From Ramlibacter sp. (GTDB lineage: Bacteria; Pseudomonadota; Gammaproteobacteria; Burkholderiales; Burkholderiaceae_C), in the NCBI GenBank assembly GCA_028291885.1, contig JAQGNJ010000039.1, forward strand, positions 1 through 34,875: a stretch of DNA of 34,875 bases, written 5' to 3'. Positions within the stretch are counted from its first letter, which is position 1, and the number at the start of each line of letters is the position of its first letter. Below are positions 2,001-9,991 of the stretch, piece by piece. The position numbers were made by a program, and so were the translations under genes. The notes below the pieces were generated by a model. That model was not told the origin of the DNA and ran no database searches. It worked only from the letters and a program-made list of their open reading frames with translations.

Positions 2001-2321
2001 TTACGGGCGCACGGCCAGGTTGTTGCGCACTTCACGCACGCCGCGCGAGTTGCGTGCCAGGTATTCGGCCTGCGACTTCTCGGCGTTCGACTTGGCGAAG
2101 CCGGAAAGCGAGACGGTCCCGTTCAGCGTTTCCACCTTGATGGCGGCCGCATCGACGGTCTTGTCCTCGACGAACTTGGCCTTCACCGCGGTGGTGATGG
2201 CCACGTCGTCGATGTAGGCGCCCGGGGTTTCCTGGCCGCGCACCACAGCGCAGCCGGTCGTGAGGATGGTGGTGCCTGCAAGGGCAGCCAATGCCAGGGC
2301 CCGGATGTATTTCGTGTTCAT
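2001..2321 (-). CDS. BON-domain (OsmY-like) lipoprotein
   Basis: Signal with LTTGCAVV lipobox; IDDVAITTAVKAKFVEDKTVDAAAIKVETLNGTVSLSGF. Confidence 0.85.
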   Translation of the reverse strand: MNTKYIRALALAALAGTTILTTGCAVVRGQETPGAYIDDVAITTAVKAKFVEDKTVDAAAIKVETLNGTVSLSGFAKSNAEKSQAEYLARNSRGVREVRNNLAVRP

Positions 2322-2407
2322 GTATTTCTCCTTCGAGTGAATCGGTTCGTCTGTGCCTGTCGTTGCAAAAAGCTCGCCCGCCGGGCACTACGTCGGCGGG
2401 GTTGCGG

Positions 2408-2869
2408 TCATAGTTCGGGTTCGCGGCCCTGCTGCTGCGCATGCCAGCCCTGCGCGTCCGAGAGCGCGGACATCACGACGCCGGAGAGTTGCGAGGACTT
2501 CACGATGGCGACCACAAGGGTCGTCAGCGAGATCAATCGCCAGGGCCTGGTCACCACCAGCAGGGCGCCGACGCCGGCGGAAATCGCCAGCACCTGGAAC
2601 GGTTTCCTGCGCATATAGGACTGCAGCGCCGGGCTCGCCATCTCCAGCGCCATCTGCGCCGGGTGATGGCGCCACCAGGAGCGCGCCGCCCCCGACAGGC
2701 CGCCGAACCAGCCTCCGCGGCGCGAGCGCCGCTCGCCGTCCGCGGCTTCGCCGCCGGCGGCGTCGGGGGATTCCGCGTCGCTGGCGTCTCGCTCACCGCG
2801 GTGCTCGTGGCGTCCGAGGTATTCGACGATGGCGAGCCGGCTGCGGGCCAGCTTCTCGGAGGGCGTCAT
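2408..2869 (-). CDS. Hypothetical membrane protein, third gene of a YqjD/YqjE-like operon
   Basis: Overlaps the YqjE-like gene by 4 nt; hydrophobic segment FQVLAISAGVGALLVV. Confidence 0.65.
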   Translation of the reverse strand: MTPSEKLARSRLAIVEYLGRHEHRGERDASDAESPDAAGGEAADGERRSRRGGWFGGLSGAARSWWRHHPAQMALEMASPALQSYMRRKPFQVLAISAGVGALLVVTRPWRLISLTTLVVAIVKSSQLSGVVMSALSDAQGWHAQQQGREPEL

Positions 2870-3243
2870 GAACGCGCTCCGGCCATCCGCAAAGCCTGGG
2901 CGTCGGCGTCGAGCTGTCCGCGCAGTTCGACGAAAGCCTGCGTCGGCAGGCTCTTGCGCGCGATGCTCATGGAAACCAGCGCCAGGGCGAGCGCGACGCC
3001 GGGCGCCAGCACCAGGACCCAGTGGAACCCCTGCATGAAGCCCAGCATGACGGCCACGCCGGCAAGCACCAGGAAGACGACGAAGGACACGGCCGCGACG
3101 CCCCAGGCAATGGCGCGGCGCAGCACTTCCGCGCCCAGGGTGGCCGCCTCCTGCTGCGCCAGGGCAGCGTAGCCACTGAGGTGGTCGACAACCAGCTCGG
3201 GCCGGCTGACCAGGACCCTGAAGATGGGATGGATCATCGCCAT
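2866..3243 (-). CDS. Phage-holin-family / YqjE-like membrane protein
   Basis: Two hydrophobic hairpin helices (AIAWGVAAVSFVVFLVLAGVAVMLGF; VLVLAPGVALALALV); position downstream of a DUF883 gene. Confidence 0.75.
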   Translation of the reverse strand: MAMIHPIFRVLVSRPELVVDHLSGYAALAQQEAATLGAEVLRRAIAWGVAAVSFVVFLVLAGVAVMLGFMQGFHWVLVLAPGVALALALVSMSIARKSLPTQAFVELRGQLDADAQALRMAGARS

Positions 3244-3263
3244 CGCTTGGACGTGCGGTTGGA

Positions 3264-3620
3264 TCAGAGACGGTTGCGGCGACGGGCTGCGACGAGCAGT
3301 CCCGCGATCACCGCGCCGGCTGCCACGGCGATCAGCACCGATTTCACCGGCTGCTGCGAGACGTAGCGGCCGGTCACGTCCGCATAGCGCGAGAGCTGCT
3401 TCTGGGCGGCGGCGGCTGCTTCGGACGCGACGTCCACGCCCCGGCTGGCGAGGTCCTTGGCGCCGAAGCCCAGGTCGCGGACCTTCTCGCTGGCCTTGCC
3501 GATCACCTGGCTCGCGAGCTGCCGCGTGCTGTCGAGCGCGCTCTCGGCGCCGTTCATGGCCTCGTCGGCGTAGGAAGCGGGCGTGCTGCTGCGCAGGGAT
3601 CTGGTGCTCGGTGTGTTCAT
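3264..3620 (-). CDS. DUF883 family protein (YqjD/ElaB-like)
   Basis: Amphipathic N-terminus and C-terminal TM with terminal basic cluster: QQPVKSVLIAVAAGAVIAGLLVAARRRNRL. Confidence 0.85.
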   Translation of the reverse strand: MNTPSTRSLRSSTPASYADEAMNGAESALDSTRQLASQVIGKASEKVRDLGFGAKDLASRGVDVASEAAAAAQKQLSRYADVTGRYVSQQPVKSVLIAVAAGAVIAGLLVAARRRNRL

Positions 3621-3693
3621 GGTGACCTCTTCTGGTTGGTGGACGTGGACTGGAAACTGGTGGCCTGGACGGGCAGGGATGCAGGGCCGGGCG

Positions 3694-3864
3694 TCAGCCC
3701 TTGCGCTTGTGCACCATGCTGACGATGAACGTCACGACCGCCATGGCGACGAAGACGAAGAACAGGATCTTGGCGATCTCGACGGCGCCCGCCGCGATGC
3801 CGCCGAAGCCGAACAGGGCGGCGATCAGCGCGACGATCAGGAATACAACGGCGTAATGAAGCAT
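3694..3864 (-). CDS. DUF1328 (YtjA-like) small membrane protein
   Basis: Reverse-strand translation [58 protein letters not shown]-like AAGGAGAA upstream; absent from supplied ORF track. Confidence 0.9.
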
Positions 3865-4001
3865 CTTCGTTCTCCTTGGGCGAGTGCCCGTGGCACCCGT
3901 GCGTCCCTGGTGGAACGCTTGAGCCCAAGCTTAGAACGGAAGGTCAGCCATTGCTGATCAGCGGCAAGCGTGACTGGTTGTCGGTGGCCGCGATGGATGC
4001 C

Positions 4002-4019
4002 TGTAGGAGTCCGCCGACA
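4002..4019. promoter_or_regulatory. Candidate response-regulator site TGTAGG-AGTCCG-CCGACA
   Basis: Same arms as the site at 6696-6713. Confidence 0.45.
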
Positions 4020-4033
4020 CCCGGACGGGAATT

Positions 4034-5392
4034 TCAGGCGGTCTGCGCACTGCAGGGAAGGGTGGCGCCGATCCGCGTACCGGTGCCCGGTTGCGATTGC
4101 ACCACCAGCCGGCCGCCTGCCGCTTCGACCCGGTGCTTCATGCCGGCCAGCCCATGGGTGGAACTGCGCACGTCGTTGACGTCGAAGCCCTTGCCGTTGT
4201 CCTTGATGTCCACCTCGACCTGGCCGCTGGAGTTGCGCACGCTGATGTCGACCTGCTCGGCCTGCGCGTACTTGCCGACGTTGGTGAGCGACTCCTGGAC
4301 CAGCCGGTACACCGTCAGCTGGCTCGACTCGTCCAGTTCGACCGGCTCCAGGTTGGTGGCGACCTCGATGCCGGAGCGTTCCGCGAATTCGCGCGCCAGG
4401 ATCTCGAGCGACGCCGTGAGCCCGAGGTTGGACAGCGACGAGGGCCGCAGGTCTTCGATGATCCGCCGCTTCAGGGCGATGCCGCTGTTGAGGGTTTCGG
4501 TCAGGTGCTGCAGCCGTTGCGCGAACTCCGGCGCCTGGGCGCCCAGCTTGGACTTCAGGCGGGCGACGTCCAGCTTGGCCGCCGTCAGCAGGGCGCCGAG
4601 CTCGTCGTGCAGCTCGCGCGCCAGGTGGCCGCGCTCCTCCTCTCGCACCTGCTGCAGGTGGGTCGCGAGCTCGGCCAGCGTGGCGGTGCGCTCGCGCACC
4701 TGCCGCTCCAGCAGATCGCGTTCCTGCTGCAGGATCTGCTGCTGCTGCTCGCCGGCGAGCTTCAGCGCCGTGGTCTGGCGCAGGTAAAGGTAGAACGCCA
4801 GCAGGCCCGCCATGGCGACGGCGGCGATGCCGATGCGCGAGAGCAGCAGCGAACGGCGCACCTGCACCTGGCTGACCTCCATCCGGGCGGTGCTGGCATC
4901 GATCAGCTTGGTCGCCTGTTCCCGGATCGCATCCATGTGCTCCTTGCCGACGTCCGTCATCAGCACGAACTTCCAGGCTTCCTCGTTGCCCTGCTTGCGC
5001 ATGCGCACGGACAGGTCCATCTCGGCCAGCTTGCGCTGCACGTTGCGTCCGAGCTGGGACAGGGTGGCGAATTCGTCGGCGTTGGAGGTGTGCAGCAGCC
5101 GCAGGTTGTCCAGGTTCTGGGTGATCTCGCCCACCGCGGCGTTGTACGGCTCCAGGTAGCGGGGGTCGCCGGTGAGCAGGTAGCCCCGGGAGCCGGTTTC
5201 GGCGTCCAGCACGTGCTGCAGCAGCCGGTTCAGGGTGCCCCGGGTGCGCGACGCCTCCGCGATGTCGTCCAGCGCGGCGCTCGACCGGTTGTAGCCGGTT
5301 TCGTTGATCCCGATCAGGATGCAGGCCGCGAGAATCGCCAGAAGCAGGCTGATAGCCATCTTCGGCATAGAAAACGATCGCATCAATATCAC
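4034..5392 (-). CDS. CHASE3-type sensor histidine kinase (HisKA_3, NarX/DegS-like)
   Basis: N-terminal TM, LDAETGSRGYLLTGDPRYLEPY CHASE3 signature, REEERGHLARELHDELGALL H-box, HGLAGMKHRVEAAGG G-box. Confidence 0.9.
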   Translation of the reverse strand: MILMRSFSMPKMAISLLLAILAACILIGINETGYNRSSAALDDIAEASRTRGTLNRLLQHVLDAETGSRGYLLTGDPRYLEPYNAAVGEITQNLDNLRLLHTSNADEFATLSQLGRNVQRKLAEMDLSVRMRKQGNEEAWKFVLMTDVGKEHMDAIREQATKLIDASTARMEVSQVQVRRSLLLSRIGIAAVAMAGLLAFYLYLRQTTALKLAGEQQQQILQQERDLLERQVRERTATLAELATHLQQVREEERGHLARELHDELGALLTAAKLDVARLKSKLGAQAPEFAQRLQHLTETLNSGIALKRRIIEDLRPSSLSNLGLTASLEILAREFAERSGIEVATNLEPVELDESSQLTVYRLVQESLTNVGKYAQAEQVDISVRNSSGQVEVDIKDNGKGFDVNDVRSSTHGLAGMKHRVEAAGGRLVVQSQPGTGTRIGATLPCSAQTA

Positions 5393-5509
5393 TCCAAACC
5401 GCCTTCGTTATGAATAAAATCGCCAATAATCGACACTAGAGGGAGACGGCCCCTTCCGCTGTTGTTGTACAAACGGGCCTGTGCTTGTCATCGCGAAAGA
5501 GAACCAGAC

Positions 5510-6142
5510 ATGATCAAAGTCGGAATTGTGGATGACCATGCCATCGTGCGGTCGGGGCTGAAGCAGTTTTTCTCCGAGCAGGTCGACCTGCGCGTCGTCG
5601 GGGAAGCTTCCAGCGGCCGCGAGGCCATCGACCTGGTTCGCACCACCGAACTCGATGTGCTGGTGATGGACCTGTCCATGCCTGGCCAGAGCGGCATCGA
5701 CGCGCTCGGCATGATCCGCGCCAAGGCGCCCGACGTCGGCATCCTGATCCTCTCGGGCTATCCGGAGGAGCACTATGCGATGAACCTGATCCGCCAGGGC
5801 GCGAGCGGGTACTTGAACAAGGAATGCGAGCCGATGGAGATCGTCAACGCGATCCGCACCATCGCGCTGGGACGGCGCTACATCTCTCCGGCCGTCGCCG
5901 AACTGCTCGCGCAGCAGCTCAATCGCAAGGAAGGCGGCGCGCCTCACGAGCAGCTCTCCGAGCGCGAATTCCAGGTGTTCCTCAAGCTCGCCAAGGGAGA
6001 GACGGCCGGTGACATCGCCAAGGCGCTGTCGCTGAGCGTCAAGACGGTCAGCACGTACCGCACCCGCCTGATGGAAAAAATGAGCCTGGCCTCGAACAGC
6101 GACCTGACCTATTACGCGCTGAAGAACAAGCTGATCGACTGA
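5510..6142 (+). CDS. NarL/FixJ (LuxR-type) response regulator
   Basis: MIKVGIVDDHAIVRSGLKQFF receiver; LSEREFQVFLKLAKGETAGDIAKALSLSVKTVSTYRTRLMEKM HTH; internal ATG at 5510. Confidence 0.93.
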   Translation: MIKVGIVDDHAIVRSGLKQFFSEQVDLRVVGEASSGREAIDLVRTTELDVLVMDLSMPGQSGIDALGMIRAKAPDVGILILSGYPEEHYAMNLIRQGASGYLNKECEPMEIVNAIRTIALGRRYISPAVAELLAQQLNRKEGGAPHEQLSEREFQVFLKLAKGETAGDIAKALSLSVKTVSTYRTRLMEKMSLASNSDLTYYALKNKLID

Positions 6143-6157
6143 AGCCCGCTGCGCGCC

Positions 6158-6547
6158 TCATGGCGCGGGCGCGGAGGGCGTGCACTGCTCCATGCAGTAC
6201 TCGACCAGCGCATCGATCTCGTTGGATTTGTCGAAGACCGCGTCCGCACCGAGCTGGGCGCAGCGTTTGCGCATGTCCTCGGTCGCATAGTTGCTCAGGA
6301 CCACCACGCGCTGCGCTCCCTGCCGCCCCTGGCAGGCCTCGAGCACGCCCAGGCCGCTGCCTTGCTTGAGAAAGAGGTCCACGATCGTCAGGTCCCAGGC
6401 CGCGGGATGGCCCGAGAGCCAGCTGCGTGCCTCGTTCTCCGTTTCGGCCCAGCCCAGCGCCTTGATGCATGCCAGTTCTTCCAGCGTCCCGATCAGGTTT
6501 TCGCGGATCGTGGCGTTGTCTTCGACGATATAAGTGCGCAGTTCCAC
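6158..6547 (-). CDS. Single-domain response regulator (receiver only)
   Basis: VELRTYIVEDNATIRENLIGTLEEL...WDLTIVDLFLKQGSGLGVL...VVVLSNYA...AVFDKSNE; no output domain; GTG start at 6547 preferred (ORF can extend to 6601). Confidence 0.85.
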   Translation of the reverse strand: MELRTYIVEDNATIRENLIGTLEELACIKALGWAETENEARSWLSGHPAAWDLTIVDLFLKQGSGLGVLEACQGRQGAQRVVVLSNYATEDMRKRCAQLGADAVFDKSNEIDALVEYCMEQCTPSAPAP

Positions 6548-6670
6548 GGTGGTCAATTCATGGCGCGTTCCAAGGCACACGCGCCGTCGGCTTTCGGGCA
6601 ATTGCGGGCCGGGCGATCACCCGGCGCTTCTCCTCCAGCGGGCATTTTGCCAGTGCGACCGCGGGCCAAT

Positions 6671-6688
6671 CGTAGGACCTTTCCTACA
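6671..6688. promoter_or_regulatory. Candidate response-regulator site CGTAGG-ACCTTT-CCTACA
   Basis: Perfect GTAGGA-CCTT-TCCTAC inverted repeat inside an 18-bp motif. Confidence 0.5.
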
Positions 6689-6695
6689 GCTCGAG

Positions 6696-6713
6696 TGTAG
6701 GCACGCACCGACA
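6696..6713. promoter_or_regulatory. Second tandem candidate site TGTAGG-CACGCA-CCGACA
   Basis: Identical arms to site 4002-4019; 25 bp centre-to-centre from the preceding site. Confidence 0.45.
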
Positions 6714-6819
6714 GGAGCTCAGGCGCACTACTGGCAGCAAAGCAATTGCACACCCAGCACACTGGCGTGAAACAGGTAAACGCCGGGACACCGAAACCGG
6801 TTCAGGGAACATCCGAAAA

Positions 6820-7026
6820 ATGAAACTGTTGATCCAGTCCGCAATGATTTTCTTCGGCACGCTGATGGCTGCCGCCGTCGTGGCGCTGGGCGAGCCTGGC
6901 AAGGCCGATGAAGCCTTCGTCAGGAGCGCTGCCACGCAATCGGGCAATGGTGCGCAGGCGGGTGCTCCGGACTCGCGCCCGCTGGTCAGCGTCGCTTGGA
7001 CCGACGCGGGCCTCGGCGCACGCTGA
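6820..7026 (+). CDS. Possible small membrane/exported protein
   Basis: MKLLIQSAMIFFGTLMAAAVVALGEPGKADEAF: hydrophobic N-terminus; ends 8 nt before the AsmA start. Confidence 0.35.
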   Translation: MKLLIQSAMIFFGTLMAAAVVALGEPGKADEAFVRSAATQSGNGAQAGAPDSRPLVSVAWTDAGLGAR

Positions 7027-7034
7027 TCGACGCC

Positions 7035-9215
7035 ATGGACGGAACGACCGCCACCGCACGCAGTCCCGGCACCGGCCGTCCGCTCTGGGTCAAGCTGCTG
7101 GCCGGGTTCGTCGTGCTGCTGCTGGCCCTCGTGTTGCTGGTCGTCTTTTTCCCCTGGGACTGGCTGCGCGGGCCGGTGAACCGCTATGTCACCGACCGCA
7201 CCGGCCGCCATTTCGAGATCACGCGCCATCTCGATGTCAAAGTCGGACGCACCACCCGCGTCTTTGCCGACGGCATCGAGTTCGCCAATCCCGAGTGGGC
7301 CAAGGATTCGCACCTGGTGAAGGCCGACGCGGCGGAGATCGACATCAGGCTGTTGCCGTTGCTGCGCGGACGCATCGAGCTGCCGTTGATCAAGTTCACC
7401 CGGCCGCAGCTCGGGTTGCAGATGGAGCCGGACGGGCGCCGCAGCTGGGCGCTCGGGCGCGACACCTCCGACAAGGGCAACCTGCCGGATATCGGCGCAC
7501 TGGTCGTCGATCAGGGCACGATGCACTTCCTGGCAAGCGAATACGGCGCCGACGTGCGGACCGAATTCGCCATCGACAACCGCGGCGACGCCAAGCTGCC
7601 GCTCGGATACAAGGCCAGCGGAACGTGGCAGAAGGAGCCCTTCACCGCCCAGGGCCGGGCCGGCAACGTGATGAATCTCGGAGGCGCGGAAAAGGGATCG
7701 TTCCCGCTGGAGATCGCCGCGGCGGCCGCGCACACCACGCTGAAGGCATCGGGCACGGTGGACAACCTGGCCACGATGGACGGGGCCAATGCGAGCTTCA
7801 CGATGCAAGGCGCCAACCTGTCCGAGCTGTACAAGCTGCTCGGGGTCGTGCTGCCCGAGACGCCTCGCTACGAGCTGCGTGGCCACATGACCAAGCAGGC
7901 CGACGTCTGGAAAGTCGACCAGATCAACGGCAAGCTGGGCAACTCCGACATCAGCGGCCAGATGACCTTCGACCGGTCGCAGCCCGTGCCGCTGCTGACC
8001 GGCAAGCTGCAGTCCAGGGCGCTGGACTTCGACGATCTCGCGCCGCTGGTCGGCCTGCCCGAGCAACCGCGCAGCGCGGCGGCGTTGCCGCACGTCGCGC
8101 CAATTGCCGTCGGCACTGCCCCTGCGAAGGCGGCGCGCGCCAACGTTGCACCCGGTCGCGTGTTGCCGACGGCGGCGCTGGACGTCGCGCGGCTGAAGGC
8201 GATGAACGCGGACGTGCAGTACAGCGCCGCGAAGATCACGAACGTGCGGCAGCTGCCGCTGGAGCGAATGAGCGTGCACGTCAAGCTCAAGGACAGCGTG
8301 CTGCAGCTCGACCCGACCGACCTGGGCGTGGCGGGCGGACGCTTCACCGGACGCATCCGGATCAATGGCAAGAGCGATCCGGCGGTCGCGGAGATCAAGC
8401 TGGACGCGCGCGCCCTCGAACTGGGCAAGCTTTTTCCCTCCGCCAAGCTGACCCGGGCGAGCTTCGGCAAGATCCACGGCGTCATCGACCTGCGTGGCCG
8501 CGGCAACTCGGTGGCCCAGATGCTGGGGACCTCGTCGGGCAACTTTGCCCTGTTGATGGGGCGTGGGCAGATCAGCAACCTGCTGCTGGAAATCGCCGGG
8601 CTCGACGGCGGCGAGATCATCAAGTTCTTCGCCGAGGGCGACCAGAACGCGGAGCTGCGCTGCGCCGCCGCGGCATTCGACGTGAAGAACGGCGTCATGA
8701 CCAGCCGCGCCCTGGTGCTCGACACCTCCGACACCGTGATCTACGGCGACGGCTATGTCAGCCTCGCGAACGAGGCGATGGACCTGACGCTCAATCCCTA
8801 TCCCAAGGACAAGAGCATCCTGGCGTTCCGCTCGCCGCTCAAGCTTGCCGGCACGTTCGCCAAGCCCAAGGCAGGCGTCGACAAGGCGGCGCTGACCGGC
8901 AAGGCCGGCGTCGTGCTGGCGCTGGGTGCGATCAATCCCCTGCTGGGGCTGGCGGCGACGATCGAGACCGGTCCGGGCAAGGACGCCGATTGCCGCTCCG
9001 TACTGCAGGAGGCAGCCGATCCCGCTGCCGCCGCCCGCGCCGCGGCCGCAGGCACGCCAGACCCGTCCAAGCCCGCGCAGGGCAACACCACCAACGTCAT
9101 GGGAGCGGCGCCAAAGAGCGGTGTGTCGCCGCAGCAGCTGGCGCGTGAGCGGCTGGAGCGGCTGGAGCGCCTTCCGCAGGAGCGGGACGCGGCGGCCGCC
9201 GCCAGGCAGCGCTAG
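7035..9215 (+). CDS. AsmA family protein
   Basis: N-terminal TM then FPWDWLRGPVNRYVTDRTGRHFEITRHLDVKVGRTTRVFADGIEFANPEWAKD; long beta-rich AsmA-like body. Confidence 0.88.
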   Translation: MDGTTATARSPGTGRPLWVKLLAGFVVLLLALVLLVVFFPWDWLRGPVNRYVTDRTGRHFEITRHLDVKVGRTTRVFADGIEFANPEWAKDSHLVKADAAEIDIRLLPLLRGRIELPLIKFTRPQLGLQMEPDGRRSWALGRDTSDKGNLPDIGALVVDQGTMHFLASEYGADVRTEFAIDNRGDAKLPLGYKASGTWQKEPFTAQGRAGNVMNLGGAEKGSFPLEIAAAAAHTTLKASGTVDNLATMDGANASFTMQGANLSELYKLLGVVLPETPRYELRGHMTKQADVWKVDQINGKLGNSDISGQMTFDRSQPVPLLTGKLQSRALDFDDLAPLVGLPEQPRSAAALPHVAPIAVGTAPAKAARANVAPGRVLPTAALDVARLKAMNADVQYSAAKITNVRQLPLERMSVHVKLKDSVLQLDPTDLGVAGGRFTGRIRINGKSDPAVAEIKLDARALELGKLFPSAKLTRASFGKIHGVIDLRGRGNSVAQMLGTSSGNFALLMGRGQISNLLLEIAGLDGGEIIKFFAEGDQNAELRCAAAAFDVKNGVMTSRALVLDTSDTVIYGDGYVSLANEAMDLTLNPYPKDKSILAFRSPLKLAGTFAKPKAGVDKAALTGKAGVVLALGAINPLLGLAATIETGPGKDADCRSVLQEAADPAAAARAAAAGTPDPSKPAQGNTTNVMGAAPKSGVSPQQLARERLERLERLPQERDAAAAARQR

Positions 9216-9991
9216 CCGACTTTCGCCGTCGGCGCCGGCCGGGCGGAGCAGACAGGGCAGGCCGCGTTGCGCGGCACACGCAGCTCGCTCCACTCCATCG
9301 TCCGTCCATCGAGCATCAGCATCCGGCCGGCCAGCGAAGGGCCGGCGCCGGAGAGCAGTTTGAGCGCTTCGGCCGCCTGCATCGACCCGATGATCCCCAC
9401 CATGGGAGCGAACACACCCATCGTGGCGCAACGCGTTTCCTCGAACTCCAGATCCGGCGGGAACACGCAGGCATAGCAGGGCGAGGCCGGATCCGCCGGC
9501 TCGTAGACGGCGACCTGGCCGTCGAAGCGGATCGCGGCGCCCGAGACCAGCGGCTTGCCGTGCCGCACGCAGGCCGCGTTGATCGCGTGGCGGGTCGCGA
9601 AGTTGTCGCAGCAGTCCAGCACCACGTCCGCTTGCGGGACCAGTGCGTCCAGCAGCGCCGCGTCGGCACGGGCGTTGACGGCGATCACCTCGGACTCAGG
9701 ATTGATCTGCGCGATGGCCTGCCGGGCCGACTCCGCCTTGGGCGAGCCGAGGCGTGCCATGTCGTGGGCGATCTGGCGCTGCAGGTTGGTCAGGTCCACC
9801 GTGTCGTTGTCGACCAGCGTGATCCTGCCGACGCCCGCCGTCCCCAGGTAAAGGGCCACGGGCGATCCCAGGCCGCCGGCCCCGATCACCAGGGCATGGG
9901 CCGCGAGCATTCGCTCCTGGCCTTCGATGCCCACTTCGTTCAGCAGGATGTGGCGCGAATAGCGCAGCAACTGGTCGTCCGTCATTGCCAC
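9212..9991 (-). CDS. moeB: MoeB/ThiF/HesA family adenylyltransferase
   Basis: RYSRHILLNEVGIEGQERMLAAHALVIGAGGLGSPVALYLGTAGVGRITLVDNDTVDLTNLQRQ; CYAC and CPVC zinc cysteines. Confidence 0.9.
   Translation of the reverse strand: MAMTDDQLLRYSRHILLNEVGIEGQERMLAAHALVIGAGGLGSPVALYLGTAGVGRITLVDNDTVDLTNLQRQIAHDMARLGSPKAESARQAIAQINPESEVIAVNARADAALLDALVPQADVVLDCCDNFATRHAINAACVRHGKPLVSGAAIRFDGQVAVYEPADPASPCYACVFPPDLEFEETRCATMGVFAPMVGIIGSMQAAEALKLLSGAGPSLAGRMLMLDGRTMEWSELRVPRNAACPVCSARPAPTAKVG

Follow-up and report, generated by a model that had tools for sequence, protein, structure and literature searches.

A conserved TGTAGG-N6-CCKACA inverted repeat as the likely operator of a NarL/FixJ-type response regulator in Ramlibacter and related soil bacteria

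Three copies of an 18-bp inverted repeat lie around a two-component locus in a 34,875-nt stretch of Ramlibacter sp. DNA (contig JAQGNJ010000039.1; hereafter the window), which raises the question of what protein, if any, reads them and which genes they control. A preliminary description of this DNA had likened the repeats to sites of NarL/FixJ-family regulators, with the regulator encoded at 5510-6142 as the obvious candidate. We estimate a probability of roughly 0.85 that the motif is the operator of this regulator, which would be paired with the CHASE3 kinase at 4034-5392 and would drive a stress-type regulon. The motif, its conservation, spacing and promoter geometry, the classes of target and the linkage to the regulator gene were all computed. 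The genes of the home locus are:

2001..3620, minus strand: remaining genes of the DUF1328 operon, encoding DUF883-like, holin-superfamily-like and BON-domain proteins, with gene order kept
3694..3864, minus strand: DUF1328 small membrane protein (PF07043, above cut-off), first gene of the operon at 2001-3864
4034..5392, minus strand: sensor histidine kinase, CHASE3-HisKA_3-HATPase_c by Pfam, predicted to be the regulator's likely partner
5510..6142, plus strand: response regulator of NarL/FixJ type (Response_reg and GerE), predicted to be the DNA-binding protein
6158..6547, minus strand: receiver-only protein (Response_reg), predicted to be the most conserved target of the site array
6820..7026, plus strand: small protein gene with a conserved MKLLIQSAMIFFGTLMAAAVVALGEP start, predicted target of a divergent promoter, with AsmA next

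The regulator combines a receiver domain (PF00072, 94.1 bits) with a LuxR-type GerE domain (PF00196, 57.1 bits), both above cut-off. Judged by protein identity, it is conserved to an unusual degree: most Ramlibacter loci share 97-100% with it, and the Polaromonas and Curvibacter copies are 83-91% identical. The kinases of those two genera retain only 63-68%. The nearest relatives of the kinase are from Ramlibacter (up to 86% identity), which places the genome in this genus, and it adjoins the regulator divergently in almost every relative for which the locus spans both genes. Within the operon at 2001-3620, the BON match exceeds its cut-off, and those to DUF883_C and Phage_holin_3_6 are weak.

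Around these genes we distinguish five sites or half-sites, all given on the plus strand:

3979..3984, plus strand: conserved half-site TGTCGG, 23 bp from site D
4002..4019, plus strand: site D, TGTAGG-AGTCCG-CCGACA, an exact match and the distal site of the DUF1328 operon promoter
6671..6688, plus strand: site 1, CGTAGG-ACCTTT-CCTACA, an exact match, proximal (class II position) for the receiver-only gene promoter
6696..6713, plus strand: site 2, TGTAGG-CACGCA-CCGACA, an exact match in tandem with site 1 at a spacing of 25 bp
6719..6736, plus strand: putative site 3, weak and degenerate, with a spacing of about 23 bp to site 2 and possibly proximal for the small-ORF promoter

Sites D, 1 and 2 are the only exact matches to YGTAGG-N6-CCKACA in the window, and all three are intergenic, as the preliminary description had claimed: site D is flanked by the stop of the kinase gene (4034) and the start of DUF1328 (3864), and the pair at 6671-6713 by the receiver-only gene (start near 6547) and the small ORF (6820). 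The whole 4.32 Mb assembly holds seven exact sites, three of them within this 2.7-kb stretch. Chance recurrence, already called very unlikely, is ruled out by dinucleotide shuffles of the window (a mean of 0.01 matches, with none of 100 shuffles reaching three) and by the rarity of altered spacers (nine unique N7 and eight unique N5 sites in 40 genomes). Two half-sites had also been proposed. The TGTCGG at 3979-3984 is real (1.55 bits), its TGT being present in 32-33 of the 33 loci aligned; the one at 51-58 found no support, having two mismatches in its 41-58 context and no counterpart near the BON gene of relatives in a scan allowing at most one mismatch.

Phylogenetic footprinting, which the preliminary description had suggested, found the motif at the same two intergenic places in about 30 related loci from Ramlibacter, Caenimonas, Polaromonas, Xylophilus and Curvibacter. 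Information content was 0.9-1.3 bits within sites compared to 0.2-0.35 bits in their flanks, with means of 1.30 bits for site 1 (32 aligned loci; core GTAGGA-N4-TCCTAC nearly invariant), 1.14 bits for site D (about 32 loci) and 0.91 bits for site 2 (about 30 loci). At weak site 3, the G at 6723 is kept in 30 of 31 loci and the consensus at 6731-6735 reads CCGAC. Beyond the sites, the island ATTNTGCCAG at 6644-6653 is nearly invariant in 32 loci. Extra conserved columns (TGATC-G and C-GTGA) also occur at 3955-3972 in the DUF1328 promoter, between the TGTCGG half-site and CTAAGCTT.

Comparison of these loci supports the receiver-only gene, the small membrane-peptide gene and the DUF1328 operon as the probable conserved targets. 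In about 30 loci the sites lie upstream of the receiver-only gene, both where AsmA is adjacent and where it is not. AsmA is ruled out as a conserved target, because loci that lack it as a neighbor still carry the sites; the earlier placement of the site pair upstream of the receiver-only gene and the small ORF stands, and the extension to AsmA does not. The small protein at 6820-7026 (plus strand) is unannotated: its start codon and N-terminus (MKLLIQSAMIFFGTLMAA-like) are conserved in 13 loci independently of AsmA, its tail is variable, and a Pfam search gave no match.

Is the neighboring regulator the protein that reads these sites? In a family sample of 151 genomes, 13 of the 72 listed exact sites in regulator-carrying genomes lay within 3.5 kb of the regulator gene, compared to 0.11 expected, and these came from 12 genera. 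Genomes with the regulator held 2.32 motifs each versus 1.04 in those without (Mann-Whitney p = 6.5e-6), an excess that may be partly confounded with genome size; the reversed-pattern control gave 1.11 and 0.81, respectively. Some regulator-carrying genomes (G129, G306) had no exact site. Separately, an identical palindrome, TGTAGGGCCAGCCCTACA, recurs in many genera (e.g., G365:C1:834236, G250:C15:62086, G377:C3:60598), often without the regulator, and looks like an unrelated element that inflates the motif counts of regulator-free genomes.

The sites could instead belong to another LuxR/NarL-type regulator, the neighboring one being incidental: the half-site layout is common to several NarL/FixJ regulators, our first look at the genome found 93 candidate related receivers, and another protein could bind the sites since many genomes hold several LuxR-type regulators. 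We consider this unlikely, given that exact sites cluster beside orthologues of 5510-6142 in 12 genera and also adjoin more distant homologues elsewhere (51-68% identity; 51-58% in other families). The three sites are thus very probably docking sites for the adjacent regulator, as far as sequence comparison can tell.

The arrangement of sites relative to promoters bears on what the regulator would do there. We oriented asymmetric sites toward their predicted target, taking the CCTACA half as proximal, and the gene on the predicted side started away from the site in 47 of 63 cases. Among 62 asymmetric intergenic sites, 24 had a (T/C)ANNAT hexamer starting 21 nt (20 sites) or 22 nt (4 sites) past the site, compared to at most three sites at any other offset, though kaiC orthologues make up much of this spike (about 17 promoters). 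The 21-nt rule was found at many kaiC orthologues and also at STAS, CHRD and other promoters, and was not seen at the DUF1328 and multi-HAMP promoters. A -10-like hexamer at this distance would put the center of the site at about -42, so that it abuts a poor -35, the arrangement of class II activation. The predicted promoter elements of the home locus are:

3927..3934, minus strand: putative sigma38-like -10 (CTAAGCTT) of the DUF1328 operon, with conserved AAG/TTA columns, the sigma factor being assigned by resemblance
6644..6649, minus strand: predicted -10 of the receiver-only gene promoter, CANAAT (CAAAAT in the window), extended by TG(G/T), 21 nt from site 1
6758..6763, plus strand: predicted -10 (CACACT) for divergent transcription of the small ORF, at distances of 44 nt (site 2) and 21 nt (weak site 3)

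The spacing between site 1 and CAAAAT equals that in other promoters of the regulon, and five of the six CANAAT positions are kept in 31-32 of 32 loci. A reading of CTGGCA (6653-6648) as a -35 was dropped in favor of an extended -10 (TGG-CAAAAT), since a -10 at 21-22 nt recurs in other promoters. On the opposite side, the window and eight other loci have a (C/T)A(C/G/T)ACT hexamer at a constant 44 nt from site 2. With conserved hexamers on both sides, the array appears to serve two divergent promoters. The CTAAGCTT element lies 44 nt from the TGTCGG half-site and 67 nt from site D, and at other promoters it is found 42-43 or 66-67 nt from sites. A different promoter layout occurs at 6 of 11 multi-HAMP kinase promoters (L016, L126, L152, L165, L174, L192), where the sites are fully palindromic and are mostly followed by a CCAGTACTGGGTTTGC-like element no more than about 25 nt away.

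Instead of activating, the regulator might repress from these sites or play a dual role, as site 1 abuts its promoter and a divergent array could have opposite effects at its two promoters. Yet the proximal site lies upstream of the -10 without covering it and beside a poor -35, like class II activated promoters (PMC7250471), and we judge repression or a dual role improbable. Activation through the NarL/FixJ regulator remains the preferred reading, and its early nomination is backed by promoter geometry and by the way site and regulator are linked and occur together across genera.

Pattern searches, the source of all our regulon counts, extended the target set beyond the home locus. TGTAGG-N6-CCKACA occurred at about 100 unique sites in 37 Ramlibacter genomes, with a strand count of 117 versus 54 for the reversed pattern. 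According to a crude gene caller, 74 of 102 sites (~73%) were intergenic, versus 12% of random positions in the same loci, so that the genome-wide scan proposed at the outset found the motif mostly between genes, not randomly scattered in coding sequence. Several families recurred downstream: KaiC (13 genomes), a multi-HAMP kinase (11 sites), and RsbRD_N/STAS, receiver-only and small hydrophilic proteins (four each), as well as DUF1328 with its operon, catalase, CHRD and others (Pfam names). Both kaiC and the multi-HAMP gene carry sites in the source assembly too. Control of kaiC was seen in Ramlibacter only and not in other genera. A repeat element (REP-like palindrome) or terminator stem involving no regulator is scarcely credible and was rejected: the motif is palindromic and intergenic, and TGTAGG strings also appear in a paper on REPs of other bacteria (PMC2817692), but there are only about three copies per genome, their position is fixed relative to the promoter, their spacer sequence is not conserved and the same gene families recur downstream.

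We infer binding, phosphotransfer, activation over repression and a stress role from these patterns. In the proposed mechanism, the CHASE3 kinase (4034-5392) would phosphorylate the regulator (5510-6142), one dimer of which would bind each TGTMGG-N6-CCKACA inverted repeat, with tandem dimers often 23-25 bp apart; where the proximal half-site lies 21-22 nt upstream of the -10 (center near -42, abutting a poor -35), transcription would be activated. One home array would serve the two divergent promoters of the receiver-only gene (minus strand) and the small membrane-protein gene (plus strand), and a second would activate the DUF1328/DUF883-like/BON operon. Elsewhere in Ramlibacter genomes, kaiC, the multi-HAMP kinase, the RsbRD/STAS protein, catalase and others may be under the same regulator. 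The regulator thus appears to switch on scattered stress and timing genes, including the clock-like gene kaiC, in Ramlibacter and related soil bacteria. A larger role for the two-component system, as a general-stress master switch of Comamonadaceae that in Ramlibacter wires sensing into the KaiC-kinase timer operon with receiver-only feedback, is a tentative idea that we regard as somewhat doubtful.

Our conclusion is that the motif is real and conserved, and that it is probably the operator of a regulon whose regulator is ordinary in kind. The interesting parts are the link to kaiC and the compact grammar of the promoters. One member of the genus, R. tataouinensis, is a desert cyst-former whose operon of KaiC and histidine kinase has been interpreted as an 'hourglass' timer (PMC3164672); neither promoters nor LuxR regulators nor a regulon come up in that paper. 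In Ramlibacter kaiC is a recurrent motif target; upstream control is our proposed addition to this operon, and the motif supplies a candidate transcriptional activator for kaiC. With a consensus and a spacing rule defined, the stress-type regulon is now testable. We looked in the literature for the motif, for a stress regulator of Comamonadaceae and for a GacA box in betaproteobacteria and found no match; none of the papers searched appears to describe the regulon, the consensus or the kaiC link.

The kind of system is known, its inverted repeats being like those of GacA/UvrY and BvgA. RcsB is likewise a NarL/FixJ regulator with an inverted-repeat site, and it is more distant from our regulator (27% identity versus 37% for UvrY). 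The likeness to BvgA is one of geometry only: at BvgA-activated Bordetella promoters, dimers sit every 22 bp with the proximal one abutting a non-consensus -35 (PMC7250471), compared to tandem spacings here of 25 and ~23 bp and N21-22 to the -10, whereas the kinase and targets of the Bordetella system differ from the stress and kaiC set found here.

The closest resemblance is to GacA/UvrY/SirA, the top NCBIfam model for the regulator (NF007018, 186.9 bits, below the family cut-off of 280). The partner in those systems is a BarA/GacS-type hybrid, whereas the kinase here is CHASE3-HisKA_3-HATPase_c without receiver or Hpt. Given the score below cut-off and the different kinase type beside it, we describe the regulator as GacA-like rather than filing it as GacA. 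GacA/UvrY/SirA regulators drive sRNAs that bind CsrA/RsmA; a search of the home locus (3000-9300) found no Rfam family of Rsm/Csr sRNA. UvrY sites at csrB and csrC lie far upstream, whereas those described here adjoin -10 elements, and the published UvrY site is an 18-nt inverted repeat with consensus TGTAAG-N6-CTTACA (PMC4682653). Both this operator and our motif are 18-bp inverted repeats with a 6-nt spacer and outer TGTA/TACA, and they differ in the fifth base, which is G in our motif (TGTAGG/CCKACA) and A in the GacA/UvrY/SirA site. The recognition region (S)xKT(V/I)STYR is common to nearly all the more distant homologues, one of which (56% identical, in L217) has an exact GacA-type box, TGTAAGCGCTCTCTTACA, beside its gene. 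The motif suggests that, in a single lineage of regulators, this operator and the GacA box are one base change apart.
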